Assembly: GCA_012728565.1 (NCBI GenBank)
Contig: JAAYEV010000032.1
Coordinates: 1-53,752, forward strand
Origin: Clostridiales bacterium
Lineage (GTDB): Bacteria > Bacillota > Clostridia > Ch29
Length of the DNA: 53,752 nucleotides
Direction: 5' to 3'
Positions within the stretch are counted from its first letter, which is position 1, and each line of letters begins with the position of its first letter. The position numbers and the translations under genes were made by a program. This document shows, one piece after another, positions 5,673 to 47,634 of this stretch. Under the pieces are notes generated by a model that was not told the origin of the DNA, made no database searches, and was given only the letters and a program-made list of their open reading frames with translations.

Positions 5673-6678
5673 TAATTTCGTCCCCTCCTCCCCTTGAAAT
5701 AACAATTTCGCCGGCATCCTCCAGTTTTCTTATGATGTTCACTATCTTCTGCTGTGCTTCTTCCACGTCCCTCAACCTTACGGGACCCATAAACTGCATG
5801 TCCTCGTTTATCATTTCGGCAAGGCGTTTTGACATATTGCTGAATATTACGCCGGCAACCTCTTCGTTTGCTCCCTTGAGGGCGGTGGCAAGAACATCGT
5901 TTTCCACTTCCCGCAGGAACCTTTGGATTGACCTGTTGTCAAGGGTAATAATGTCTTCAAATACAAACATCCTTTTCTTAATCTCTTCGGCCAGTTCGGT
6001 ATCCTCCACCTCCAGGGTTTCCATGATGTTCTTCTCTGTACCCCGGTCCACCGAGTTCAGTATGTTAACAATGCTCTGTATCCCCCCTGCGGAGGTGTAG
6101 TCATGGGTCACAAGGGAGGATATCTTTTTTTCCAGAACCTTTTCCACCTGTTTTATTACATCCGGTGAAGTCCTGTCCATTATGGCAATCCTCTTGGCAA
6201 CCTCCGACTGTTTTTCCGGCGGAAGGGAAGACAGTATCGCCGCAGCCTGCTGAGGGTTAAGGTAAGCCAGTATTAGGGATATGGTCTGGGGATGCTCGTT
6301 TTGTATAAAATTCAGTATTTGGTTTGGATCGGCTTTCCGTACAAAATCAAAGGGGCGGACCTGCAAATACGATGTAAGCCTGTTGACTATATCAAGGGCT
6401 TTCTGGCCCCCAAGGGCCTTTTCCAGCACCTCTTTCGCATACTCGATTCCGCCCTGCGAAATATACTCCTGGGCGACGCATATTTGGTAGAACTCTTCAA
6501 TCACCTTGCTCTTTTCCTCCGGAGTAACCTTCCGCATATTGGCTATTTCCAAGGTCAGCTCTTCAATCTCTTCATCCGTCAGATGCTTGAATATTTTTGC
6601 CGAATTCTCAGGCCCCAGGGCTATCAACAGAATAGCCGCTTTCTCTTTTCCGCTTAACCCGCCTTTTGTTCTAACCAT
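5665..6678 (-). CDS. fliG: Flagellar motor switch protein FliG
   Basis: FliG forms the upper C-ring, binds FliF and generates torque through contact with the stator. At 337 residues it has the usual length. The three domains are visible: the N-terminal FliF-binding domain (KEKAAILLIALGPE), the middle domain with the EHPQT motif at about 128-132 and NPQQAAAILSSLP, and the C-terminal motor domain with the charged torque helix around IQRFLREVENDVLATALKGA. It precedes fliH with a short overlap and follows fliF by 8 bases. Confidence 0.96.
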   Translation of the reverse strand: MVRTKGGLSGKEKAAILLIALGPENSAKIFKHLTDEEIEELTLEIANMRKVTPEEKSKVIEEFYQICVAQEYISQGGIEYAKEVLEKALGGQKALDIVNRLTSYLQVRPFDFVRKADPNQILNFIQNEHPQTISLILAYLNPQQAAAILSSLPPEKQSEVAKRIAIMDRTSPDVIKQVEKVLEKKISSLVTHDYTSAGGIQSIVNILNSVDRGTEKNIMETLEVEDTELAEEIKKRMFVFEDIITLDNRSIQRFLREVENDVLATALKGANEEVAGVIFSNMSKRLAEMINEDMQFMGPVRLRDVEEAQQKIVNIIRKLEDAGEIVISRGGGDEIIV

Positions 6679-6686
6679 TGTCTCAC

Positions 6687-8240
6687 CTACTCTTCATGAA
6701 GCCAGGTCTTCAAGAGCTGTGCAGCGGTTTCGGGCTTTTTGCTGATAAACCTCTCCACCTGCTTGCGCGCTCCTGTCTGGCCTTGGGTAAGGTCAATCTC
6801 TTCCACTTCATCCGTAACTGCCACATCCAGCTGTGATGTCAGGACCTCTTCTTCTCTTTGCTTTCTCTTTCTCAAAACAAGTAATGTACCTATAATTCCA
6901 ATAAGCAGCAGTGCCCCAATTCCTCCCAGGTAGGTATAGAACTTTATCTTTTCCATACGCTGCCTGTCCTCGAAGCCCTGGGCAATTTCCGCTGCCAGGC
7001 TTGTATCAAAGGGCAGCGATTGTATCCTTACCACCTGGCTGTCAATGCCCGCCGCCGCAGCAACAATGTCCGCAATATTGTCCATATCCTGCTGCGTAAG
7101 CTCCTGGGCAAGGGCAGTGCTGTTAATAAGAACCGCCACCGAAAGGCTTTTCACCTGGCCTTGGGCTTTTACTATCTCTTCCTTGATTTGGTTTAGTTCA
7201 TAATTCACCGTCCGGCTGACACTGTCATACCTGGACTGGTCGGTTTCAAGCTCCGCGTAGGACACAATATCGTCCATATTGCTGTCGGTACCGGGAACCC
7301 CTCCGCCGCCCATATTTTGCGCATGTTCCTCCAGTTCCTGAATACTTCTAATAAGTCCGGAATCTTCGCCCGGTATCGGGGGCTCGAACCTGACTATACT
7401 GGTAACCTGGCTGTCAAAGTCAAGTTTTAGGTTTACCCTGACATCCACGTTGTTCTTTCCGTAGGCGGTTTCCAGAAACTCCCTGATGCTTTTTTGCATC
7501 CGTCCCTGCATATCCTGTTCAATTTCCATCTGCTTCAAAAGCTTTCCCTGCTGCGTTTCCACCTCGGAAGACAGCTCCTGGCCTGTCTGGTCAATTATGG
7601 ATATGTTCTCCTTTTTAAGTCCCTTAACACTCTTTGAAACAAACTGTATTATCCCGTCCACCTGCTCCTGTGAAAGAACAGCCCCCGGCTGCAGCTTAAT
7701 TAAAATCCCGGCACTGGACTGGTATTCGCTTTCGCTTAGCGCAAATACGCTGTCACCGGGAATATAGAGGTTTACCTGGGCGTATTCCACTCCCTCTATG
7801 GTCTCTATGGCTTGGGCTATTGCGTATTCCTGGCCAACCCGTATCCTTTCCCTTCTCTCCAGGTCGGTCGTTCCCAGGCGTGTATTATCCAGTGCCTCCA
7901 CCAGGCTGAAACCGTTCCTGGGTAGACCTTCGGTCGCCAGCTGCATCCTCAGCCTGTTTACCTCCTGTTTTGGCACCAGTATTGTGGAATCATCATCAAT
8001 TTCCCATTTCACCTTGTATTCGTCCAGTTTCTGGGTTATGGCTCCCGCGTCCTCCATTTCAAGCTTACCGTACAGTGGAACCATTTCCGGTCGGGATGTG
8101 AAAAAAACCAGCAGTGCCATACTGGCAACGAAAATCGCCGCGCTTATACCTATCTTCAGCTTTTGTTTTTTTGTCCTGGCCTGCCAAAACTCGTTTAGCT
8201 GATTTTTCACTCTTTTCAGGGTCTCTTCCAATGCGTCCAC
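6687..8240 (-). CDS. fliF: Flagellar MS-ring protein FliF
   Basis: FliF builds the MS ring in the cytoplasmic membrane, the base on which rod, C-ring and export apparatus assemble. The 517-residue protein has a first membrane helix at about residues 29-48, a large periplasmic part with ring-building motifs (YGKLEMEDAGAI, LYIPGDSVFA and AYGKNNVDVRVNL), and a second membrane helix at about 436-458 followed by a short cytoplasmic tail that binds FliG (ERFISKKPETAAQLLKTWL). The start is GTG at 8240 behind an aaggat site. It is shorter than the proteobacterial form, as usual in Firmicutes. Confidence 0.95.
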   Translation of the reverse strand: MDALEETLKRVKNQLNEFWQARTKKQKLKIGISAAIFVASMALLVFFTSRPEMVPLYGKLEMEDAGAITQKLDEYKVKWEIDDDSTILVPKQEVNRLRMQLATEGLPRNGFSLVEALDNTRLGTTDLERRERIRVGQEYAIAQAIETIEGVEYAQVNLYIPGDSVFALSESEYQSSAGILIKLQPGAVLSQEQVDGIIQFVSKSVKGLKKENISIIDQTGQELSSEVETQQGKLLKQMEIEQDMQGRMQKSIREFLETAYGKNNVDVRVNLKLDFDSQVTSIVRFEPPIPGEDSGLIRSIQELEEHAQNMGGGGVPGTDSNMDDIVSYAELETDQSRYDSVSRTVNYELNQIKEEIVKAQGQVKSLSVAVLINSTALAQELTQQDMDNIADIVAAAAGIDSQVVRIQSLPFDTSLAAEIAQGFEDRQRMEKIKFYTYLGGIGALLLIGIIGTLLVLRKRKQREEEVLTSQLDVAVTDEVEEIDLTQGQTGARKQVERFISKKPETAAQLLKTWLHEE

Positions 8241-8306
8241 CCCATCCTTGTTTGGTCGGTGCTACCCTGCTTCAGCCGTAGGGCTAAGCAGCGCATCTAC
8301 TTGCTT

Positions 8307-8603
8307 TTATATCTGCATCCTCATGATCTCCTGGTATGCTTCTATTACCTTGTTTCTTATCTGCAGGGTGAACTGCAGCGCTATGTCCGCCTTTAACGAA
8401 TCTATCGTCACCTGGTGCAAGTTTTGTATTTCTCCCGTTGCAAGGGCTATAGCGGAATTATCCGCCGCATTTTGCAGATCGTTAACCTTGTTTACGGCTT
8501 CGCTAAGGTACTGGCTGAAGCCCACGGTTTGCTGCCCATCGCCTGAAGTCCTTTGTACGGGTATGCTTAACGGCTTAATGGGACTTTGAACATCTATTCT
8601 CAC
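8307..8603 (-). CDS. fliE: Flagellar hook-basal body complex protein FliE
   Basis: FliE joins the MS ring to the proximal rod and is the first rod protein exported. The 98-residue product contains FSQYLSEAVNKVNDLQNAAD and ends with the conserved helix FTLQIRNKVIEAYQEIMRMQI. A GTG start at 8603 has GGAGG 9 bases upstream. It lies between flgC and fliF, as in nearly all Firmicute fla operons, with a 66-base gap before fliF. Confidence 0.94.
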   Translation of the reverse strand: MRIDVQSPIKPLSIPVQRTSGDGQQTVGFSQYLSEAVNKVNDLQNAADNSAIALATGEIQNLHQVTIDSLKADIALQFTLQIRNKVIEAYQEIMRMQI

Positions 8604-8617
8604 TTATTCCAACCTCC

Positions 8618-9067
8618 CTATGACCTTCCAATCTCCAGTGCTTTCTGGGCCATCCCCTTGGCTGCGTTAAGCGCAGTTACATTCGCCTCGTACGCCCTTG
8701 CGGCGGAAATCATGTTTACCATTTCCACAACGGCATCCACGTTGGGCATAAGCACGTAACCCTCCTCGTCGGCATCCGGGTGCCCCGGGTCATACATGCG
8801 TTTGAAAGGGGATTTGTCGTCCACTATCCCCTTGACCTTAACCCCGCCATCCTTAAGGAAAAGCCTTCGGCTTTCCTCAGAAAGGAATTGGGAGAAGGCT
8901 TTATTCCTGCAGTTTTCCTCGAATATAACCACCTGTCTCCTATAGGGAAGCCCGTTCTCGGTCCTGGTGGTACTGGCGTTGGCTATGTTTTTGGCAATAA
9001 CGTCCATTCTCAGCCGTTGGGCGGTCAGCCCGGTGGCACTTACGTTAATGGCGTTGAAAATGCCCAT
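8618..9067 (-). CDS. flgC: Flagellar basal-body rod protein FlgC
   Basis: FlgC is a proximal rod protein exported through the flagellar type III pathway. The 149-residue product shows the rod-protein N-terminal signature (NVSATGLTAQRLRMDVIAKNIANA, split by the helix turn) and the C-terminal helix ENPDVD-like region realised here as YVLMPNVDAVVEMVNMISA followed by RAYEANVTALNAAKGM. The ATG has an aggaggtag site. It follows flgB by 4 bases. Confidence 0.95.
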   Translation of the reverse strand: MGIFNAINVSATGLTAQRLRMDVIAKNIANASTTRTENGLPYRRQVVIFEENCRNKAFSQFLSEESRRLFLKDGGVKVKGIVDDKSPFKRMYDPGHPDADEEGYVLMPNVDAVVEMVNMISAARAYEANVTALNAAKGMAQKALEIGRS

Positions 9068-9071
9068 GGGT

Positions 9072-9479
9072 CTACCTCCTACCTTCGTTTATTACCGTTC
9101 TGAGCCTTGCAAGTCTTGCCGATAGCTGGTCTGTCAAAGCCATGTACATAATAGTGTTTTTGGCCAGGTTTGCGGTTTGAACGTCAATGTCCACGTTGTT
9201 CCCGTCAATCCTTGTCCTTGTGCTTCTATCCCTTGTTATACGGGGAGAGAGCCTATCAAGGCTTTTGTTTGATATGGGAATATGCATCGGGTTTTCGCTG
9301 GACACTTTAAAGTCCCTGTTTCTCATCGCATCCTTCAGAAGGTCCTCGAATTCAACTTTGTAGGCTTTATAATTGGGGGTGTCAACATTTGCTATGTTGT
9401 TGGAGATTACCTGGTTCCTCAGCCAAGAAGCATCCAAGGCTTTCTGAAGAATTGTGAGCACTTGGTTCTCGCTCCGCAT
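9072..9479 (-). CDS. flgB: Flagellar basal-body rod protein FlgB, first gene of the fla operon
   Basis: FlgB is a proximal rod protein and here the first gene of the large flagellar operon. The product (135 residues from the ATG at 9479) contains WLRNQVISNNIANVDTPNYKA, with its first 20 residues already diagnostic, and ends with the C-terminal rod helix NTIMYMALTDQLSARLARLR. The upstream ATG at 9512 is less likely because GGAGG sits 8 bases before the ATG at 9479. A c-di-GMP riboswitch and terminator precede it by about 170-320 bases, so expression of the whole operon probably responds to cyclic di-GMP. Confidence 0.94.
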   Translation of the reverse strand: MRSENQVLTILQKALDASWLRNQVISNNIANVDTPNYKAYKVEFEDLLKDAMRNRDFKVSSENPMHIPISNKSLDRLSPRITRDRSTRTRIDGNNVDIDVQTANLAKNTIMYMALTDQLSARLARLRTVINEGRR

Positions 9480-9646
9480 TTTTCCCACCTCCAGGCTTTT
9501 GAATTGACCCATACTTTAATACATATTCGATGATTTTCATCATATTCCTTCATGTATATCTAAAAATAACCCCCTTTTCTATTTTTTCATACATCATTCC
9601 TCAAATTTCCTAAATCTTTGCAGCGGGCTCTTTAAGGTCCGGCCTT

Positions 9647-9679
9647 AAAAAAACCTGCCGCCCGGAAGCCGGCAACAGG
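9647..9679 (-). terminator. Intrinsic terminator of the flagellar-operon riboswitch (expression platform)
   Basis: On the minus strand a GC-rich hairpin (5' arm CCTGTTGCCGG, 3' arm CCGGGCGGCAGG) is followed directly by seven T residues. It lies about 30 bases after the c-di-GMP aptamer and before flgB. The 5' arm and loop include CCGGCTTCC (plus-strand 9664-9672), which can pair with GGCAGCCGG of the aptamer (plus-strand 9720-9728) in 8 of 9 positions. Such pairing would form an antiterminator when the ligand is absent. Confidence 0.85.
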
Positions 9680-9708
9680 TAAATAAACCGTTTTATAAAA
9701 AGCGGCTG

Positions 9709-9796
9709 TATCCGGCAACCCGGCTGCCATAGCAATGACCTTGCCTTAGGCCCGTGGCTTTGCGTCCCCACCTTTTGATGGGTTTGCCTTTATCGA
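9709..9796 (-). promoter_or_regulatory. Cyclic di-GMP-I (GEMM-I) riboswitch upstream of flgB
   Basis: The minus strand reads AAAGGCAAACC, then a P2 hairpin CCCATCAAAAGGTGGGG, then GACGCAAAGCC and later GGCAGCCGGGTTGCC. These are the conserved blocks of the GEMM-I c-di-GMP aptamer, including the GNRA-like loop and its receptor. It is oriented toward flgB and followed by an intrinsic terminator. In Clostridioides difficile a class I aptamer in the same position turns flagellar genes off when c-di-GMP is high; the overlap of aptamer and antiterminator seen here fits the same off-switch logic. The rest of the 474-base gap (9480-9953) is very AT-rich around 9800-9910. I could not fix a promoter there, and I see no gene. 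Confidence 0.92.
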
Positions 9797-9953
9797 ACAC
9801 TGTCATATTATTAATATATTCTATCATATATTTCTATATATTTTTACTTTTTCCTCCTTTTTTCGTAAAAATATTTTTTATTTTTTCTATTTTTTGTTAT
9901 ACCGACCGTCGTCTCGCCGCTTTATTTCGTTATATATAAGCCCGGTAACTGCT

Positions 9954-11345
9954 TTATATTATGAACCGACCTATGTCCTTCCCGGTTATCAATTCCTTAA
10001 GCTGCGCCTTAACGTATTCCCCGTCAATCACCATGGTTTTCCCCGTAAGCTCGGGTGCGGAGTAGGAAATCTCTTCGAACAACTTCTCTACAATGGAATG
10101 CAGCCTTCTTGCTCCTATGTTTTCATCCGCCTGGTTGACGGCATAGGCTATCTCGGCTATTTGGTCTACCGCGTCGTCCTTGATTACCACCTTCACTCCT
10201 TCGGTATCCAGCAGGGCCGTGTACTGGGTAATAAGGGCGTTTTTTGGCTGGGTCAGTATCCTTTTGAAATCTTCTACCGTCAGGCTGTCAAGTTCCACCC
10301 TTATCGGAAAGCGGCCCTGGAGCTCGGGTATCAGGTCGGAGGGCTTTGATATGTGAAAGGCCCCCGCTGCAATAAACAGTATATGGTCGGTCTTTACCGG
10401 CCCGTACTTTGTCATCACGGTACTGCCCTCCACCAGCGGCAGTATATCCCTCTGCACACCCTCCCTGGAAACGTCCGGCCCGGCCTTGTAGTCCCTGGAC
10501 GCTATCTTGTCTATCTCGTCCAGAAATATTATCCCGTTTTGCTCGGCCTGTTCTATGGCCTCGGCAACCACCTGGTCCATGTCCACCAGTTTGTTGGCTT
10601 CTTCCTGCACCAGCAGTTTCCTTGCCTCCGCCACTGTTACCTTTCTTTTTTTCTTTTTGCCGGGAAGCATTCCGCCAAGGAGGTCACGGAAATTTATAGA
10701 CATCTCTTCGATACCCACCCCGGTGAAAAACTCCACCGGTGTCCCGCCCCTGTCCTCTATTTCAATCTCAACCATTTCATTCTCCAGCTCGCCTATTTTC
10801 AGCTTTGACCTTACTATGTTTCTCTCCTCATGAACCGCCTTCATTCTTTCCCCGTCGCCGGTGTTCTGCTGTTCCGGCGGCTGGCCGAACAAAACCTCCA
10901 GCGGGTTTTTATAGGACGCTTCCTTTTTCGGCGAGGGGACTAAGAGCTCAACTATCCTTTCCTCCGCCGCCGCTTCGGCCTTGCCCCGGACCTGCTCCAC
11001 CATCCTGTTTTTTACCATTCTTATGGAGGTTTCCACCAGGTCCCTAACCATGGAATCCACGTCCCGGCCCACGTAACCGACCTCTGTGAACTTGGTGGCT
11101 TCCACTTTGACGAAGGGCGCATCAACAAGTCTTGCAAGCCTCCGGGCAATCTCGGTCTTGCCTACGCCGGTAGGGCCTATCATTATTATGTTCCTCGGTT
11201 TTATCTCCTCCTGGAGTTCCTCCGGCAGTCTCCTTCGCCGGTACCTGTTTCTAAGGGCCACCGCCACCGACCTTTTCGCGCTGTCCTGGCCTACTATGTA
11301 CTTATCCAGCTGCTTTACTATCTCAGAGGGAGTTAGTTCTCTCAA
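9954..11345 (-). CDS. hslU: ATP-dependent protease ATPase subunit HslU (ClpY)
   Basis: HslU is the AAA+ unfoldase that feeds substrates into the HslV peptidase. At 463 residues it has full length. The Walker A motif GPTGVGKT is at about 57-64, the variable I domain covers roughly 110-240, Walker B is at IIFLDEIDK, and the C-terminal sensor region contains [14 protein letters not shown]. The C-terminal tail ([10 protein letters not shown]) is the segment that inserts into HslV to activate it. The start is TTG at 11345 behind aggagaggtg. It follows hslV by 21 bases. The codY gene, often next in Bacilli and clostridia, is absent; the fla operon leader follows. Confidence 0.96.
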
Positions 11346-11366
11346 TTTTTCACCTCTCCTTTAACA

Positions 11367-11897
11367 TCATAGCTCCAGTACGGTTATGTCATCATTGGTA
11401 TATACACAAATACCGGACGCTATCCTCAGGGCCTTTTCAGCAATTCCGGCCGCGTCCAACCCGGTGTTTTCGTATAGGGCCCTTGCCGCCGCCAGCGCAT
11501 AAGGCCCGCCCGAGCCAACGGCAATCACGTTGTCGTCCGGTTCTATTACTTCGCCGTTCCCGGAAATAACCAGCAGCGATTCCCTGTCAAGGGCTATCAG
11601 CATTGCCTCCAGCCTTCTTAATACCTTGTCGGTCCTCCAGTCCTTGGCAAGCTCCACCGCAGCCCTCTTAAGGCTTCCCCCGTACTGCTCCAGCTTGCCT
11701 TCGAACTTTTCGGTCAAAGTAAGGGCATCCGCCACCGAACCGGCAAACCCTACCAGGACCCTGTCGTTGTATATCTTCCTTACCTTTTTTGCACGATGTT
11801 TCATTATGGTATGTTCGCCCAGCGTAATCTGGCCGTCTCCAGCAATGGCTCCCTTGCTTCCTTTCCTTACAGCCACAATTGTGGTCCCCTTTATCAC
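11367..11897 (-). CDS. hslV: ATP-dependent protease peptidase subunit HslV (ClpQ)
   Basis: HslV forms the double-ring peptidase of the HslVU protease and is proteasome beta-like. The product (176 residues, GTG start at 11897) begins [13 protein letters not shown]. The Thr after the four-residue leader is the expected N-terminal nucleophile once processed, unlike the Ser of Bacillus subtilis Clp[12 protein letters not shown] and [14 protein letters not shown] are conserved family blocks. It is followed by hslU and preceded by trmFO with a 43-base gap. The recombinase gene xerC, frequent at this position in Firmicutes, is missing. Confidence 0.96.
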
Positions 11898-39964: not shown

Positions 39965-42046
39965 TTATACCACTTTTAAGCCCTCGGTTTCCAGTCTTCT
40001 TTGCAATATATTGACACATTCCTCCCCTTCCATGGACAGCCTTGTGCCCTTGGGCCCTTTACGGGTCACCACAAGACCGTACTTTGCCAAGATGTTAAGC
40101 CGGTTTCTTACCATTTGTTCTGTCATCTTGGTGCCCCCGCCGCAAAGCTGCGCAAGACTTCTCCTGCTTAAGTAAGCCCTGCCTTCTTCCTGTGCTTTTT
40201 TCATAGTTGAAAGGATAAGGAATGTTTCGTCCATGGGCATTTCCTTTTCCAGCAGCTGCAGCAGCTTTTCCTTTTGCATAGTGCTGTCCTTTGAAACAAA
40301 GGGCAGGTCCTTTACCCTCACAGGACCTTCTCCAACAATGTGATAAAGGTACTCGATTACGTTTTCCAGCTCGCGGATGTTTCCCGGCCAGTCGTATTCC
40401 ATGAACTTTTCCATGGCCTGGTCGCTTATTATAAGCTCCTTACCCCCGGGGAACCTTTCCAGCATCTTTTCAATCAAAAGCGGTATATCCTCCTTGCGCT
40501 CCCTAAGGGGCGGTATTCGAATGGGCAGCACTTTAAGCCTGTAAAACAAATCCTCCCTGAACTTGCCCGCACTCACAAGGTCTTCCAAGTTTTTATTGGT
40601 GGCGGCTATAATCCTTACATCTATAGGTATAATCTTTGTGCCGCCTATGCGCAGCACTTCCTTTTCCTGCAAAACCCTAAGCAGCCGGGCCTGGATCTTC
40701 ATTGAGGCATCCCCTATCTCGTCCAGGAATATGGTCCCCTTGTGGGCCTGCTCGAACAGCCCTGCATGCCCGCCCTTCCTCGCACCGGTAAAAGCGCCCT
40801 CCTCGTAGCCGAACAGTTCGCTTTCCAGCAGGTTTTCCGGCAGAGCCGCAAAGTTAACCGCCACAAAGGGCCCGTGCTGTTTATTGGATGCCCTGTGTAT
40901 TGCATGGGCGAACAGCTCCTTTCCTATGCCACTTTCGCCTATGAGAAGAAGGGTTGAATTGCTCTTGGCAAGTTTCCTTGCTATCTCCTTTGTCTCGGTT
41001 ATTTTCTTGCTTTTACCTATTATATTTGAAAAATCGTACTTGGAGGTGTGACCCCTTTTCATCAGGTTGGTCCTTACTATATTCTCCATCTCAATAATTT
41101 CCGAAAGGTCCTTGAAAGTTATTATAACCCCGTTGTATACGTCATCTTTGATAATGGGCATCATGGTGAGCAAAATCTTTTTACCCATTATTTCATGTAT
41201 TTTTCGATAAAGGCCGAAATTCTTCCCCAAAAGGCTCTTTGCCTCGAAGTCCAAAACATCGTCCAGGTTTATGTCTCCATTCTTAGTCTTTCCCCTTGAA
41301 CCAAACAGTTTTTTTGCATTTTCATTGCTGAACATAATACTGCCATTGCTGTCTACGCCCACTATGCCGTCGTTTATTACGTTGAGTATGGTATTTAATT
41401 GCTTCATTATATTATCGTTGGTTTCCAGGGCCTTTACCACTTTTTTGCTGGAATACACGAAGTCCTGCAGGAACCTTACCGACAACAGGTTTGTTCTCTC
41501 GTCCATGATTTTCAACTTCATCATAATCTCGGTTATGGTGGTAAGGTCAATCTTGCTGTAACCCAGGTCTATGACGTTTTCCACGTAATCGGGAACCATA
41601 TGGGTTTCCCCCGTTGTGATTGCATAATTGGCGTGCAGTGAAAACCTCTGCCCCGGGTAATACGGGTACATCCTTATATGGGTTATGCCCAGTCCTTCCA
41701 GGAGGGATATGGAGTTTTCGGCAAGGTACTTGTTAACGTCTACAAACAGTACGTCTTCTCCCTTGGGTATTCTAAGCACATCCTCCAGCTTGGAATGGTT
41801 CAGCGCACGCCTGGCCACCAGCACCTCCGACCTGGGGTCGATATACTTCATGGCCGCTTCCCTAAGGTATTCATGGCTAATCAGTACCAGCTTGTCGTAT
41901 ATTTTTTCATTTATGCCCTCCAGTATGGAATACCCCCTGATTGTCACCTCCGGGCCCAACAGGTTGGTAAGCTGGTTTATCACGTTTTCCTTATGTTTCT
42001 CGGAACGGGTTATGATGGACAGGCCGGATGGAATTTCGGTTGACAT
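39965..42046 (-). CDS. Sigma-54-dependent transcriptional activator with PAS domain and winged-helix C-terminus
   Basis: This 693-residue enhancer-binding protein has an N-terminal domain I do not recognise (about 1-180), a PAS domain (about 210-325, [19 protein letters not shown]), and the AAA+ domain with Walker A GESGIGKE at 370-377, GAFTGA at 417-422 (the sigma-54 contact loop) and Walker B GTIFLDE at 437-443. The C-terminus (about 605-685) is not the usual Fis-type helix-turn-helix; [29 protein letters not shown] and [11 protein letters not shown] look like a winged helix. It is divergent from the aminomutase operon, which has a perfect sigma-54 promoter, so it very likely activates that operon. 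The inducer is unknown; glutamate or a related amino acid is an inference. Confidence 0.93.
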
Positions 42047-42127
42047 GGTATTTGCCCTCCTTCCTGAGATATAGCGCCTTTATTTATTGTATTGTATCAA
42101 AAAATTACCGGGTTTAAAATGGTTTTA

Positions 42128-42146
42128 TTCAAAAAACCTTTTTGAA
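42128..42146. promoter_or_regulatory. Palindrome, candidate enhancer site for the sigma-54 activator
   Basis: TTCAAAAA-ACC-TTTTTGAA is a perfect 8+3+8 inverted repeat in the divergent region. Its centre lies about 275 bases upstream of the predicted start of the aminomutase operon and about 90 bases before the activator gene. Enhancers for sigma-54 activators commonly lie at such distances. Weaker repeats follow: GCTGT-N16-ACAGC (42182-42207) and ATGGGT-N10-ACCCAT (42274-42295). I see no gene in 42047-42516. Confidence 0.5.
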
Positions 42147-42384
42147 CCAATTATATCGCCGTTATACTCATTTCAAACAACGCTGTCGTGCCCCGGTGTA
42201 CCACAGCCAATAAACGGGGATAGAGCTTTTGCAGCCACAGTTTCCCGCCGGAGGGCTGTCTATTTGGTTTTTTATGGGTCATATCAACAACCCATTATCA
42301 ACCTATATGCCAAAAGCTACGCATTATAAGCCCTGCCAAGAGGCTGTTATCGCCTATAGACGCCCCCCTGCCTTATAAAAAAAC

Positions 42385-42402
42385 TTGGCATGAATATTGC
42401 TT
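42385..42402 (+). promoter_or_regulatory. Sigma-54 (-24/-12) promoter of the aminomutase-TRAP operon
   Basis: TTGGCATGAATATTGCTT has the invariant GG (42387-42388) and GC (42399-42400) with exactly ten bases between, and matches the consensus TGGCAC-N5-TTGCW except for one base. Transcription should start near 42412, about 105 bases before the aminomutase ATG. The activator with the GAFTGA loop is encoded divergently. Confidence 0.92.
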
Positions 42403-42516
42403 ATTTCATTAGCAGGCTGATCAGCGAAACCATTTTTAGGGGGTGGTATTGGAATTTAATGACATTAAGGAATGGGCATAATCATTCGAATTATTTATCC
42501 AATAGGAGGTCAAGAA

Positions 42517-43779
42517 ATGGATACTGCTAATAAAAGCGCAAGACAGATTTCCCTGGAAAGGGCCGAAGTTTTAAAAAGCCGTATAGACCCCTATCTTGAA
42601 GCTAAAATGCATATCCCTACCGGACTTGAACAGGATGAAGTAATCAAGGCAAGGCAGGCTAAGATAAAAGAAGGTTTAGGGGCTACCGACGCCGAGTGGA
42701 ACGATTGGAAGTGGCAGATAAAAAACAGGATAACAGATTCGGATACCCTTGCAAAATTTATCAATCTAACTCCCAAACAGAAGAAGGATATTGATGCTGT
42801 CACGAAGAAGTTTAGATGGGCAATTTCCCCTTACTATTTATCGCTCATAGACCCGGAGGGAGACCATTACAAGGACCCGATATACCTTCAGTCCATTCCT
42901 ACGGGCCTTGAACTAAAAGAGGGTATCGGCGAGGCCGATCCTATGGCAGAGGAATTTACCAACCCTGCCCCCTGTATTACACGCCGGTATCCCGACAGGC
43001 TTATAATTAACGTAACAAACCAGTGCGGAATGTACTGCAGGCACTGTCAAAGGAGAAGGAATATCGGAGAAATAGATTCACCACAACCTAGGGAAAACCT
43101 GCAGCAGGCTGTCGACTATATTAAAAATACTCCTGAAATAAGGGATGTTTTAATAACCGGCGGCGACCCCTTCACATTATCCGATGAGAATCTTGACTGG
43201 CTGCTGGGGGAACTTGACAAGATACCGCATCTTGAGTACAAGCGTATTGGCAGCCGGATGCCGGTTACCTTGCCCCAGAGGATAACACCCGAACTGTGTG
43301 CCATGCTCAAGAAACATCATCCGCTTTATATCAATACGCATTTCAACAACCCGATGGAAGTATCGGCCGAATCCAAAAAGGCCTGTGAGATGCTTGCCGA
43401 TGCGGGAATACCCCTGGGGAACCAGGCAGTACTTTTGAGGGGAATAAACGACCATCCCTTCGTGATGAAGAAACTTTGCCAGGAACTTTTAAGAATAAGA
43501 GTTAGGCCCTATTATATATTCCACGCTAAGGGTGTGGTGGGAACCCTTCACTTCAGAACCAGCGTTGACATTGGTATTGAAATCATGGAACACCTGAGGG
43601 GCTACACATCGGGCCTGGCAATACCCACATTTATAATAAACGCTCCCCAGGGAAGGGGCAAAACGCCCATGCTTCCAGAGTATTTAATCTCCCACGGCAG
43701 GGACACCATAACCATAAGAACCTGGGAGGGAGAAATCATCACATATCCTAACAAGGATGCCGAAGTGGAATACGAATAG
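42517..43779 (+). CDS. eam: Glutamate 2,3-aminomutase (radical SAM/PLP, KamA family)
   Basis: The enzyme (420 residues) belongs to the lysine 2,3-aminomutase family, which moves an alpha-amino group to the beta carbon using a 4Fe-4S cluster, AdoMet and PLP. The cluster Cys are 170, 174 and 177 (CGMYCRHC), TGGDP is at 214-218 and the PLP Lys is 382 (QGRGK). Lysine enzymes bind the distal amino group with two Asp; here these positions are Lys338 (FHAKG) and Asn375 (INAPQG), the pair and spacing reported for Clostridioides difficile glutamate 2,3-aminomutase. So L-glutamate to beta-glutamate is the likely reaction. The ATG at 42517 has aggaggt; an upstream ATG at 42472 has none. No beta-lysine acetyltransferase gene is nearby. 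beta-Glutamate may serve as osmolyte or catabolic intermediate. Confidence 0.88.
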   Translation: MDTANKSARQISLERAEVLKSRIDPYLEAKMHIPTGLEQDEVIKARQAKIKEGLGATDAEWNDWKWQIKNRITDSDTLAKFINLTPKQKKDIDAVTKKFRWAISPYYLSLIDPEGDHYKDPIYLQSIPTGLELKEGIGEADPMAEEFTNPAPCITRRYPDRLIINVTNQCGMYCRHCQRRRNIGEIDSPQPRENLQQAVDYIKNTPEIRDVLITGGDPFTLSDENLDWLLGELDKIPHLEYKRIGSRMPVTLPQRITPELCAMLKKHHPLYINTHFNNPMEVSAESKKACEMLADAGIPLGNQAVLLRGINDHPFVMKKLCQELLRIRVRPYYIFHAKGVVGTLHFRTSVDIGIEIMEHLRGYTSGLAIPTFIINAPQGRGKTPMLPEYLISHGRDTITIRTWEGEIITYPNKDAEVEYE

Positions 43780-43881: not shown

Positions 43882-44931
43882 ATGAGAAAAAAACTAGCTT
43901 TATTTATGGTTCTCCTGTTTGTGCTGGGCGCCATGCTGGCGGGCTGCAGCCCTTCGGGAGGTACCGAACAGCCGGGTGAAGAAGCAGAAGAAAAACCGGC
44001 ACCAGCTCAGAAAATGCAAATCAATATCATCACCGGTTCCACCGGCGGTACCTATTTCGCCCTTGGTGGGGCCATGGCCAACACCTGGAATGAATTCCTG
44101 GACAACATACAGGTGACAAGCCAGCCCGGCGGTGCTTCGGTTGAAAGTATTAACCGTGTGCATGCCGGCGAGGTTGAACTTGGAATGGCTATGAACAACA
44201 TAGCCGACGACGCCTGGAACGGCAGGGGGTCCTTCCCGACCGAGCAGCGTAACTTCAGGGCCATAGGCGTTATATACCCGGAAGTTTACCAGGGTGTTGC
44301 ATTAAAGAGCAGCGGCATAAAAACCATTGAGGACCTGAAGGGTAAAAGAGTAGCCGTAGGCCCGGTTGGAAGCGGTACCGTTGTTATGACCGAGACGGTA
44401 TTTGCGGAAGCGGGCATGACCTTTGACGATGTAAAGGCAGCCTATGACGGGTTTGGCGATGCCGCCAGCAAGATGAAGGACGGCCACCTGGATGCAGCCT
44501 TTAACGTACTGGCAGTTCCTGCCGCTGCAATACAGGACATTATGACCGCCCGTGAGATAGAAGTGATCGAAATAGGTGATGAACTGTTCCAAAAAATAAA
44601 AGCCAAGTCTCCCTTCTTCAGCCAGTATGTGATACCGGCCGGGACTTACGGTAACGAGGAAGACAAACTTACAGTCAACTGCGTGGCAGCACTTTACGTC
44701 GCCCCGGATATGCCGGAGGATGCCGTATACGAAATAACCAAGGTATGGTTTGAGCAGACCGCGCATACTGCAGCCGCTCACCAGGCCGCCCAATGGCTGG
44801 CGGATGAAATTGCCGCGGGCAACAAGCAGGTAATGATAGACGGTATTACAACACCGCTGCATAAAGGTGCCTATAAGTACTTTACTGAAATAGGCCTTGA
44901 TATCCCGGACATGATAAAACCCATAGACTAA
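43882..44931 (+). CDS. TAXI-family TRAP transporter substrate-binding lipoprotein
   Basis: The extracytoplasmic receptor of a TRAP transporter captures the substrate and hands it to the permease encoded downstream. The 349-residue product has a lipoprotein signal (LAGC, Cys22), an acidic/proline linker (about 23-44), and the TAXI domain with INIITGSTGGTYFALGGAMA, GELELG-like EVELGMAMNNIADD and KGKRVAVGPVGSGT. TAXI receptors of known structure bind glutamate or glutamine (Thermus) and other dicarboxylates. Together with the aminomutase this suggests glutamate or beta-glutamate uptake, as inference. The start has agggggtat upstream. Confidence 0.94.
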   Translation: MRKKLALFMVLLFVLGAMLAGCSPSGGTEQPGEEAEEKPAPAQKMQINIITGSTGGTYFALGGAMANTWNEFLDNIQVTSQPGGASVESINRVHAGEVELGMAMNNIADDAWNGRGSFPTEQRNFRAIGVIYPEVYQGVALKSSGIKTIEDLKGKRVAVGPVGSGTVVMTETVFAEAGMTFDDVKAAYDGFGDAASKMKDGHLDAAFNVLAVPAAAIQDIMTAREIEVIEIGDELFQKIKAKSPFFSQYVIPAGTYGNEEDKLTVNCVAALYVAPDMPEDAVYEITKVWFEQTAHTAAAHQAAQWLADEIAAGNKQVMIDGITTPLHKGAYKYFTEIGLDIPDMIKPID

Positions 44932-44945
44932 TCAACAGAGAGGGG

Positions 44946-44978
44946 GAAGGCCGGGTCGGCTTTGCAGCCCCGGCCTTC
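44946..44978 (+). promoter_or_regulatory. Hairpin before the DUF1850 gene, possibly placing its ribosome binding site
   Basis: GAAGGCCGGG (44946-44955) and CCCGGCCTTC (44969-44978) form a perfect ten-base-pair stem. The purine-rich AGGGGG lies at the 5' foot of the stem (44941-44946) and the ATG at 44983 lies 4 bases after the 3' foot. Folding would bring them to normal spacing. No other ribosome binding site is seen for this gene. Confidence 0.5.
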
Positions 44979-44982
44979 ATTA

Positions 44983-45516
44983 ATGAAAAAAACTTTTATC
45001 TTACTTTTATTTTTCGGTATAGTTTTTTCCCTTTTGCTGCTACCCATCCTTGTACTTGAAGTAAGGGTTGACGGCTCTGAAGAGCTTGTCTTTCAACAGC
45101 CAGCAAAAGCAGGAAGTTTATTCGAAGTCCACTGGATACATTCGGTTACACTGCAGCCGGTTATAGAAGTTTACCTTTTGGAAGCTCCCGGCAGAATCCC
45201 GATAGTAAAGATGACCTTTGACGAATTTGGGCCAAATCTGCCGGCACACCCCGAGTTTAACCAGTACTGGGTTATTGAAGACGGAAAATATAACGTACTG
45301 GGCTACGATTTAGTATTTGAAAGAGTTCCGGTAACCATAGGTGCCGTTATAGCAGACCATACCCTTGTTTATAACGGGCGCTCCACTCCTTTGGAGGATG
45401 TGCACCGCCCCGGCGGGTATGTGCATATAGGCCTTACAGAAAAAAAACTTTGCCAATTCTTTATTGAGGAGGTAGAAATATGGCAGAAAGGCAGAAGGAA
45501 GACAGCATTTTATTAG
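44983..45516 (+). CDS. DUF1850 protein associated with TAXI TRAP transporters
   Basis: DUF1850 proteins occur between the TAXI receptor and the fused permease in many TRAP operons; their role is unknown. The 177-residue product has an N-terminal membrane helix or uncleaved signal (about 3-25, FILLLFFGIVFSLLLLPIL), then a domain with the family block FEVHWIHSVTLQPVIEVYLL in its first half and DEFGPNLPAHPEF. It is probably anchored outside the membrane and could assist assembly or substrate transfer. The last 37 bases overlap the permease gene, so the two are translationally coupled. Confidence 0.85.
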   Translation: MKKTFILLLFFGIVFSLLLLPILVLEVRVDGSEELVFQQPAKAGSLFEVHWIHSVTLQPVIEVYLLEAPGRIPIVKMTFDEFGPNLPAHPEFNQYWVIEDGKYNVLGYDLVFERVPVTIGAVIADHTLVYNGRSTPLEDVHRPGGYVHIGLTEKKLCQFFIEEVEIWQKGRRKTAFY

Positions 45517-47465
45517 ACGAAATTAAACTGGACGAGGAAAAGTCTGATGAGATACTTGCCAAGTACGACCGGGAATTCGCCTACCGCAGGCTTGAAGGTC
45601 CGATAGCCAAGTTCGTATTTTTGCTTGCGGTTGCCTGGTCGCTGGCCCATCTGTATACGGCAGCCTTCGGGGTTTTCCCCTCCACGATACAAAGAGCTCC
45701 CCACGTTGGTATTGCCCTGGTACTAATATTTATTATGTATCCGGCCAAAAGAGGCAGTAAAAGCAACAAAGTCGCATGGTATGATTATATTCTGGCCTTC
45801 CTTGGTTTTGTCGTTTCGGCCTACCACGTAATATATTATAAGGAACTGGTTTGGCGAGCGGGAGTATATAATACCACCGATATGATAATCAGTGTTATAG
45901 CAGTTTTATTGATCATTGAAGCTACCAGAAGACTGGCGGGGCCGGTTATGATTTCCTTGGCAACGTTCTTTCTGCTGTATGCATACTTTGGTAAATATTT
46001 TCCGTCCTTCATGGCCCATCCGGGTCTTACAATAAAAAGGATAGCTGTTTTCCAGTGGCTGGGTACCGAAGGCATCCTGGGAACGCCCATCCAGGTATCC
46101 TCAACTTTTATATTCTTATTTATGCTTTTTGCTTCCTTTTTAAAGAAAAGCGGTGTCGGGGATTGGATGACGGAAATAGCGGTGGGTTTAACCGGCGGGG
46201 CCATAGGCGGTCCGGCCAAGGCGGCGGTTATTGCCAGCGCAGCCCAGGGTACCGTGTCCGGCAGCTCGGTTGCCAATACGGTGGGTACCGGGTCGGTAAC
46301 CATTCCCCTTATGAAAAGTATCGGCTATCGTCCTGCCTTTGCCGGTGCCGTTGAGGCGGCCGCATCCACCGGCGGACAGCTTATGCCTCCCATAATGGGT
46401 GCTGCGGCTTTTATAATGTCGGAGTTTTTAAACATCCCGTACGGGACCATTGCACTGGCTGCAGCCATACCGGCCGTTCTATATTTTACAGGGATATTCA
46501 TTACCGTGCATCTTGAAGCCAAAAAGGCCGGGCTTTTGGGATTACCCAAGGATAAGCTGCCCGACTGGAAACGGCTGCTTAAGAGAAAATGGTTCCTTGC
46601 GGCTCCCATATTTGGTATCATTTATCTATTGGTAAGTGGATACACTCCTATGCTGGCCGCTTTTTATGCAATAATACTGTGTATAGGCGCATCCATGATT
46701 CTAAAAGAAACCCGTATGTCCTTAAACGATATCATTTCCACACTGGAGGAAGGCGCCAAGTCCGCTCTGCCGGTTGTTGCAGCCTGCGCAACGGCGGGAA
46801 TCATCGTAGGTATTGTAACTCTCACAGGACTTGGTATGAAAATGTCAGGGGGCCTGGTAAAGCTGGCCGGTGGTAATATATACCTCACCATGTTCTTTAC
46901 AATGATAGGTTCCCTTATACTGGGTATGGGTGTCCCAACCACGGCAAACTATATAATCCAGGCAACGGTTTCCGCTCCTGCTTTAATGACGCTGGGTGTG
47001 CCTCCGCTGGCTGCCCATTTGTTCGTGTTCTATTTCGGAATAGTTGCGGATATTACCCCGCCTGTTGCCCTGGCAGCCTTTGCCGGTTCGGGTATAGCCC
47101 AGTCGGATCCGATGAAGACGGGCGTTGAGGCCTTTAAGCTTGGATTTGCAGCATACCTGGTACCGTACATTTTTGCGCTGAACCCAATACTGGTGCTTAT
47201 AAACCTTGAGGGTCTATCCACCCCGTTGTTCATCTTACGTGTAATCTTTGCATTGGCTACGGCACTGGTGGGTATGCTTTGTATCGGCGCTTCGACAACT
47301 GCCTACTTTGTAACCAACGACAAATGGTATGAACGGATCCTGCTTTTCGTTGCGGGTGTTTCCTTGATACACCCCGGGATTCAAACCGATATATTCGGTG
47401 CGGTGGTCCTGGCGGGAACATGGTTCGTACAGAAATCACGGGTAAAAAGAAAGGCTACAGCGTAA
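45480..47465 (+). CDS. TRAP transporter permease, fused 4TM/12TM subunits (TAXI type)
   Basis: This 661-residue membrane protein combines the small and large subunits of a TRAP permease, as usual for TAXI systems. After a charged cytoplasmic N-terminus (about 1-38) come about 16 or more hydrophobic segments. The large-subunit signature GGAIGGPAKAAVIASAAQGTV, split by glycine turns, and SSVANTVGTGSVTIPLMK, ASTGGQLMPPIMGAAAF, and LGMGVPTTANYI are present. It moves substrate with sodium or proton gradient. An aggaggtagaaat site precedes the ATG. A strong terminator follows. Confidence 0.96.
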   Translation: MAERQKEDSILLDEIKLDEEKSDEILAKYDREFAYRRLEGPIAKFVFLLAVAWSLAHLYTAAFGVFPSTIQRAPHVGIALVLIFIMYPAKRGSKSNKVAWYDYILAFLGFVVSAYHVIYYKELVWRAGVYNTTDMIISVIAVLLIIEATRRLAGPVMISLATFFLLYAYFGKYFPSFMAHPGLTIKRIAVFQWLGTEGILGTPIQVSSTFIFLFMLFASFLKKSGVGDWMTEIAVGLTGGAIGGPAKAAVIASAAQGTVSGSSVANTVGTGSVTIPLMKSIGYRPAFAGAVEAAASTGGQLMPPIMGAAAFIMSEFLNIPYGTIALAAAIPAVLYFTGIFITVHLEAKKAGLLGLPKDKLPDWKRLLKRKWFLAAPIFGIIYLLVSGYTPMLAAFYAIILCIGASMILKETRMSLNDIISTLEEGAKSALPVVAACATAGIIVGIVTLTGLGMKMSGGLVKLAGGNIYLTMFFTMIGSLILGMGVPTTANYIIQATVSAPALMTLGVPPLAAHLFVFYFGIVADITPPVALAAFAGSGIAQSDPMKTGVEAFKLGFAAYLVPYIFALNPILVLINLEGLSTPLFILRVIFALATALVGMLCIGASTTAYFVTNDKWYERILLFVAGVSLIHPGIQTDIFGAVVLAGTWFVQKSRVKRKATA

Positions 47466-47601: not shown

Positions 47602-47634
47602 AAAAAAATAGTAACGGTTACCCATTACTATTTT
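47602..47634 (-). terminator. Intrinsic terminator after rpmF
   Basis: AAATAGTAA (47606-47614) and TTACTATTT (47625-47633) pair perfectly with an inner GG/CC, and the minus strand continues with a run of seven T. It lies about 10 bases after the rpmF stop and stops transcription converging on the TRAP operon. Confidence 0.88.

Follow-up and report, generated by a model that had tools for sequence, protein, structure and literature searches.

A conserved sigma-54 promoter with enhancer-like palindromes before a glutamate 2,3-aminomutase and TAXI TRAP transporter operon, possibly for beta-glutamate utilization, in a Clostridiales bacterium

Contig JAAYEV010000032.1 of an anaerobic Clostridiales bacterium (GenBank assembly GCA_012728565.1), of which a stretch of 53,752 nucleotides (the window) was analyzed here, carries a radical SAM aminomutase gene followed by the genes of a TRAP transporter and preceded by a divergently transcribed regulator. 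The locus raises the question of how these genes are switched on, and whether they serve the production of an osmolyte or the consumption of an amino acid. The compound at issue, beta-glutamate, has been described as a major, metabolically static osmolyte of methanogens (PMC1224877) and, in Nitrosopumilus, a marine archaeon, was reported at 730 mM (PMC8269262). A study of Parkinson's patients reported raised levels of it in the gut and describes its metabolism as untraceable, with one KEGG reaction only (PMC12502400). A search of open-licence papers returned, in the portions of text available, no paper on the uptake or use of beta-glutamate by an aminomutase-TAXI route. The features of the locus are summarized in Table 1.

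Table 1. Features of the aminomutase-TRAP locus, in window coordinates
Feature	Position	Strand	Basis or remark
Sigma-54 activator (bEBP): N-terminal domain without Pfam match, PAS, AAA+ with GAFTGA, winged-helix-like C-terminus	39965..42046	-	Domain search
Predicted enhancer site UAS1, GGTT-N6-GGTT-N10-AACC-N6-AACC, perfect	42111..42148		Motif scan; conserved in G002, G003, G005
Predicted enhancer site UAS2, GGTT-N6-GGGT-N10-ACCC-N6-AACC	42266..42303		Motif scan; 119 bp before -24 element
Sigma-54 (-24/-12) promoter TTGGCATGAATATTGCTT	42385..42402	+	Consensus match; conserved in six loci; predicted transcription start near 42412
Palindrome GCTGATCAGC just after the promoter	42416..42425		Contains shared 9-mer CTGATCAGC
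Glutamate 2,3-aminomutase (radical SAM, PLP)	42517..43779	+	TIGR04368; alignment with 2a5h
TAXI-family TRAP solute-binding lipoprotein	43882..44931	+	TIGR02122; relatives of 1us4/8s4j
DUF1850 protein, companion of TAXI TRAP genes here and in relatives	44962..45516	+	PF08905
Fused TRAP permease	45480..47465	+	TIGR02123, 740 bits
13-bp hairpin with T tail, terminator-like, after the operon	47605..47634		Sequence scan

A near-perfect sigma-54 promoter had been claimed in the original prediction, and the site was found at that place. The exact Clostridiales sigma-54 consensus is contained in TTGGCATGAATATTGCT (42385-42401), 116 bp before the likely aminomutase start, and all 11 specified bases of the published consensus, TTGGCATNNNNNTTGCT (PMC6615313), are matched. 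The GG (42387-42388) and GC (42399-42400) dinucleotides are separated by 10 bases, which is the sigma-54 spacing and bears out the spacing originally given. A loose sigma-54 pattern with two mismatches allowed yielded two matches in the window, as compared with 4.0 expected from shuffles, and a bare loose match thus proves little. The strict pattern TTGGCA-N6-TTGCW yielded seven exact matches across the 2.2 Mb genome, a density that corresponds to about 0.0015 matches expected in the 470-bp intergenic region. The promoter occupies the equivalent place in G002, G003, G005, G276 and SV3-B14.1, which together with the window make six loci, despite intergenic DNA that can be aligned only at three elements, namely the promoter, the palindromes upstream of it and the 9-mer CTGATCAGC. 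No sigma-70-like match was found on the + strand when the 470 bp between the two divergent genes were scanned, and the genome contains a single rpoN gene (G000:C118; Sigma54_DBD 212.8 bits). A chance resemblance at -24/-12, with transcription of the operon from an ordinary promoter, would agree with loose matches being as frequent as in shuffles; it is nevertheless extremely improbable in view of the exactness of the match, its conservation in six loci, the adjoining activator, the two enhancer-like sites and the lack of a sigma-70-like match on the + strand.

The arrangement of divergent regulator, promoter and operon is found in G002 and G003 (same genus), G005 (same family), SV3-B14.1 and G276. 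The activator gene is likewise divergent in the first four of these loci; the G276 contig ends inside the activator gene, the start of which is visible. A variant of the promoter precedes the aminomutase gene in Tissierellia STF1_261, where no activator adjoins, and the transporter-linked aminomutase genes of G140 and BRH_c20a have neither a sigma-54 site nor an activator. Elsewhere in the genome of the window, a near-exact sigma-54 site (TTGGTATGAATATTGCT; G000:C48:14763, L306) precedes an apparent pair of glycyl-radical activating enzyme and glycyl radical enzyme, and an exact site (G000:C21:20546, L307) precedes a molybdenum hydroxylase-like gene.

The divergent gene encodes a sigma-54 activator with a Sigma54_activat AAA+ domain (230 bits) and the GAFTGA motif in its translation, so that the promoter indeed lies between such an activator and the aminomutase gene, as had been stated. 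It is one of nine strong sigma-54 activators in the genome. The PAS match is weak, and the C-terminus weakly resembles a winged helix (CggR_N). A Fis-type C-terminal helix-turn-helix is usual, not universal, in bacterial enhancer-binding proteins; no match to it (HTH_8) was found in the C-terminus of this activator. A structure prediction from three sequences reached a mean pLDDT of 42 and was set aside. About 20 relatives (35-43% identity) have the same whole architecture, including the winged-helix-like C-terminus, and many of them adjoin a near-consensus sigma-54 site. Judged by eye from the translations, peptidases (isoaspartyl dipeptidase-like and others), oligopeptide transporters, thiolase and CoA-transferase genes and TAXI transporters are among their neighbors. 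The own genome encodes another activator of this subfamily (L262, G000:C4, about 5884-11724), which has a near-exact sigma-54 site, with an M24 peptidase-like gene, a TAXI gene and TRAP genes downstream.

Two 38-bp bipartite palindromes of the form GGTT-N6-GGKT-N10-AMCC-N6-AACC, which the original prediction had missed and which were found in the present analysis, lie between the activator gene and the promoter. They are the sole matches without mismatch in the 2.2 Mb genome, all remaining matches carrying two mismatches. In the window, G002 and G003 alike, the distance from the start of UAS2 to the -24 element is exactly 119 bp. For UAS1 this distance is 267-278 bp in four genomes (window, G002, G003 and G005), with looser counterparts of UAS1, seen by eye, in G276 and SV3-B14.1. 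UAS2 was not detected in G005 at the scan sensitivity used. For Clostridiales, a distance of 100-250 bp to the promoter is reported for most upstream activating sites (PMC6615313). Both palindromes are predicted enhancer sites to which the activator probably binds. A sigma-70-like match for the activator gene shares bases with UAS1, and the activator may therefore regulate its own gene through this site. Near other activators, a generic scan for 8/8 dyads yielded some AT-rich chance matches; GC-bearing dyads at L251 and L267 (GGG..GGG..CCC..CCC) resemble the palindromes of the window. Taken together, the promoter, the rpoN gene, the activator and the two conserved enhancer-like sites strongly support control of the operon by sigma-54 and the divergent activator, the evidence for sigma-54 control being as good as sequence allows.

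The third alignable element, CTGATCAGC, is the only 9-mer common to all six intergenic regions, whereas 300 shuffles gave no shared 8-mers. It starts at a variable distance, 31-54 bp after the promoter start, in all six loci (window, L098, L099, L100, L114 and L163). The sequence GCTGATCAGCRNA occurs once per genome in the four locus-carrying genomes of the order, always after the promoter; one further match lies in an unrelated coding region of G004. Either an operator used by a second regulator or an RNA element close to the 5' end could account for it. We considered and rejected a leader RNA with structure around this 9-mer (a stem of 3 bp only, without covariation) and a leader peptide following it (reading frames not conserved, by eye), and a search of the leader for known RNA elements yielded none, even at a permissive threshold. 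In L100 (G005:C70) the stretch between promoter and aminomutase gene is several hundred nucleotides longer than in most relatives, apparently owing to an insertion.

The predicted leader of the window measures about 105 nt if the aminomutase gene starts at ATG 42517. The open reading frame list places the start at 42472; AGGAGG at 42504-42509 precedes ATG 42517, and since the Shine-Dalgarno sequences and start codons of the relatives align there, this is most likely the true start. The claim of an aminomutase-TRAP operon behind the promoter thus stands with a shifted start and a refined gene content, the order being aminomutase, TAXI solute-binding protein, DUF1850 protein and fused TRAP permease.

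The enzyme is identified by its sequence as a glutamate 2,3-aminomutase and not a lysine aminomutase. It scored 680.1 bits against TIGR04368 (glutamate 2,3-aminomutase; curated cut-off 650) and 497.7 bits against TIGR03820 (lysine 2,3-aminomutase, AblA), below the cut-off of 525.4. Two aspartates of lysine aminomutase, Asp293 and Asp330, are said by Ruzicka and Frey to bind the side chain of lysine. In the alignment with 2a5h these positions correspond to K338 and N375 of the window enzyme, and we take the replacement of both aspartates by Lys and Asn to be the glutamate-type set of residues. Identity as a lysine aminomutase was rejected on both the score and the residues. A separate lysine-type aminomutase that keeps both aspartates is encoded in the own genome (C51).

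Both parts of a TAXI TRAP system are present, the solute-binding protein (TIGR02122) and the fused permease (TIGR02123). As compared with VcGluP, the solute-binding protein keeps Tyr45, Ser75 and Glu125, whereas Gln93 is replaced by Met, Tyr200 by Asn and Met201 by Val; the combination of Tyr45 and Gln93 that marks the VcGluP-type L-glutamate site is thus lacking, Tyr45 being kept and Gln93 being Met. In VcGluP, Gln93 is reported to contact the alpha-amino group of L-glutamate, with 990-fold weaker binding in Q93A, and position 93 is described as variable among TAXI proteins and proposed to set the choice of ligand (PMC11574862). All 12 aminomutase-linked TAXI proteins, which the tree places in two separate parts, have Met at this position, but so do about five of 27 background TAXI proteins, which makes Met93 alone a weak and non-diagnostic character; a ligand conclusion from this residue alone was rejected on the same ground.

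Membership in a clade (support 0.999) that unites aminomutase-linked TAXI proteins with a TAXI protein of G004 whose M/N/V/A pocket matches that of the window protein is stronger evidence than Met93. The G004 protein is the nearest member of the clade without an aminomutase, and its operon (L303, G004:C3, 6056-13712) comprises a sigma-54 activator, a sigma-54 site, a class III aminotransferase, a BKACE (beta-keto acid cleavage enzyme), the TAXI protein, a DUF1850 protein and a TRAP permease. Because a beta-amino acid gives a beta-keto acid, an aminotransferase followed by BKACE suits a beta-amino acid and not L-glutamate, and L303 is a candidate operon for beta-amino acid degradation. From this gene context we infer that beta-glutamate is the compound that would suit both operons. 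The promoter and activator might instead belong to an operon for another beta-amino acid or a dicarboxylate, with an aminomutase that is promiscuous or differently specific. The proposed role of the variable position 93 in ligand choice (PMC11574862) speaks for such a substrate, whereas the score above the curated glutamate 2,3-aminomutase cut-off and the glutamate-type residues speak against it, and we regard it as quite unlikely.

Whether beta-glutamate is made or consumed was approached by comparison with stand-alone loci. Of the 47 stand-alone glutamate aminomutase loci searched, 15 have a c-di-AMP riboswitch on the same strand upstream of the gene (L041, L043-L047, L169, L171, L183, L186, L189, L193, L197, L199 and L208, many of them from Clostridia), as against none of the 12 transporter-linked loci (Fisher p=0.026, a modest contrast between loci that are not independent, uncorrected for relatedness). 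Na+ riboswitches have been reported upstream of eam (PMC9337991). Where present, the two classes of riboswitch amount to osmotic control of beta-glutamate synthesis. An osmolyte role could extend to the window if the TAXI TRAP system imported L-glutamate, the aminomutase turned it into beta-glutamate as a compatible solute and the activator sensed salt or glutamate status. The known osmolyte function of beta-glutamate (PMC1224877), both kinds of riboswitch at stand-alone loci and the L-glutamate bound by the TAXI proteins described with solved ligands are in keeping with this; it is unlikely, however, given transporter-linked loci free of c-di-AMP riboswitches, a pocket without the Gln93, Tyr200 and Met/Thr201 of L-glutamate binders, and a nearest pocket match, in G004, that stands beside degradative enzymes.

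Use of imported L-glutamate in fermentation or nitrogen scavenging would be a further route, in which L-glutamate is isomerized and the resulting beta-glutamate is degraded by enzymes encoded elsewhere. Clostridiales sigma-54 regulons are described as serving mostly amino acid catabolism and fermentation (PMC6615313), and the aminotransferase and BKACE of G004 could degrade a beta-amino acid; yet the window operon contains no such degradative genes and its TAXI pocket differs from those of L-glutamate binders, so that this route is very unlikely. 

In favor of L-glutamate as the product of the aminomutase, genes of a 2-oxoacid:ferredoxin oxidoreductase (near the 2-oxoglutarate type) and a Fis-type activator precede an aminomutase-TAXI operon in Peptococcaceae BRH_c8a, a gene order that fits L-glutamate being oxidized onwards. 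Speaking against a simple catabolic account, a search of the own genome yielded no glutamate mutase, and matches to the hydroxyglutaryl-CoA dehydratase family were weak and partial. The row of 2-oxoacid:ferredoxin oxidoreductase, GAF/PAS/Fis-type activator and glutamate aminomutase (L172/L174) is seen in both BRH_c8a and Desulfotomaculum BL5_bin.2; TAXI-TRAP genes follow it in BRH_c8a only.

The original prediction had favored catabolism over constitutive osmolyte production on the ground of sigma-54 control. Sigma-54 control does not as such show catabolism; it is comparison that supports catabolism, which fits the absence of c-di-AMP riboswitches, the sister TAXI proteins beside catabolic enzymes and the related activators beside amino acid and peptide genes. 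By the related gene sets, scavenging of beta-glutamate appears more likely than its synthesis as a salt protectant.

The following mechanism is proposed. Without a signal, sigma-54 RNA polymerase would wait in a closed complex at the promoter. The activator would bind through its winged-helix domain to the two bipartite palindromes some 80-275 bp upstream and sense a small molecule, directly or via the PAS domain; its AAA+ motor would open the promoter and the TAXI TRAP importer and the glutamate 2,3-aminomutase would be transcribed. The importer would bring in a beta-amino dicarboxylate, probably beta-glutamate, which the aminomutase would isomerize to L-glutamate as a source of nitrogen and carbon. 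We give about even chances to this explanation as a whole, that is, a dedicated sigma-54 switch for substrate-induced import of a beta-amino acid and its isomerization to L-glutamate. Its specific form, utilization of beta-glutamate with sigma-54-induced TAXI TRAP uptake, the aminomutase running in reverse of its osmolyte role and a sister route of aminotransferase and BKACE in relatives, is put forward tentatively, at somewhat short of even.

If the operon does consume beta-glutamate, the turnover step missing from the methanogen, Nitrosopumilus and Parkinson's gut studies cited above gains candidate genes along with a transporter and an inducer. Anaerobes would then be able to use up an osmolyte that stays metabolically inert in archaea, and different bacteria would put one enzyme to different uses, to osmolyte synthesis where riboswitches control it and to scavenging where sigma-54 does. 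A direct handle for testing the switch is provided by the enhancer motif.

Among known systems, lysine 2,3-aminomutase (2a5h) of lysine fermentation and N-acetyl-beta-lysine operons is homologous to the window enzyme (448 bits over 356 residues), which differs in having Lys and Asn for Asp293 and Asp330 and a score of 498 against the AblA cut-off of 525. The glutamate TAXI proteins VcGluP and TtGluBP share the fold family and Tyr45, Ser75 and Glu125 with the window protein, in which Gln93 is replaced by Met, Tyr200 by Asn and Met/Thr201 by Val. The stand-alone eam genes under Na+ or c-di-AMP riboswitches encode the same enzyme family with the same substrate-type residues, but have riboswitch control and no transporter, unlike the window with its sigma-54 control and its TAXI TRAP genes in the operon. 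The closest regulatory likeness is with the amino acid regulons of Clostridiales enhancer-binding proteins described for PrdR, OrdR, LeuR, CdsR and others (PMC6615313). Like the window, these have a one-component activator encoded locally, in which PAS and GAFTGA are present, a TTGGCAT-N5-TTGCT promoter and mostly one adjoining target operon; their multiple upstream sites, at 100-250 bp, have predicted counterparts in the window. None of the 39 published groups in Table 1 of that paper controls a glutamate aminomutase or a TRAP transporter, and many of the regulons use TGT-N10-12-ACA as compared with the 38-bp palindrome of the window, whose activator carries a winged-helix-like and not a Fis-type DNA-binding domain.
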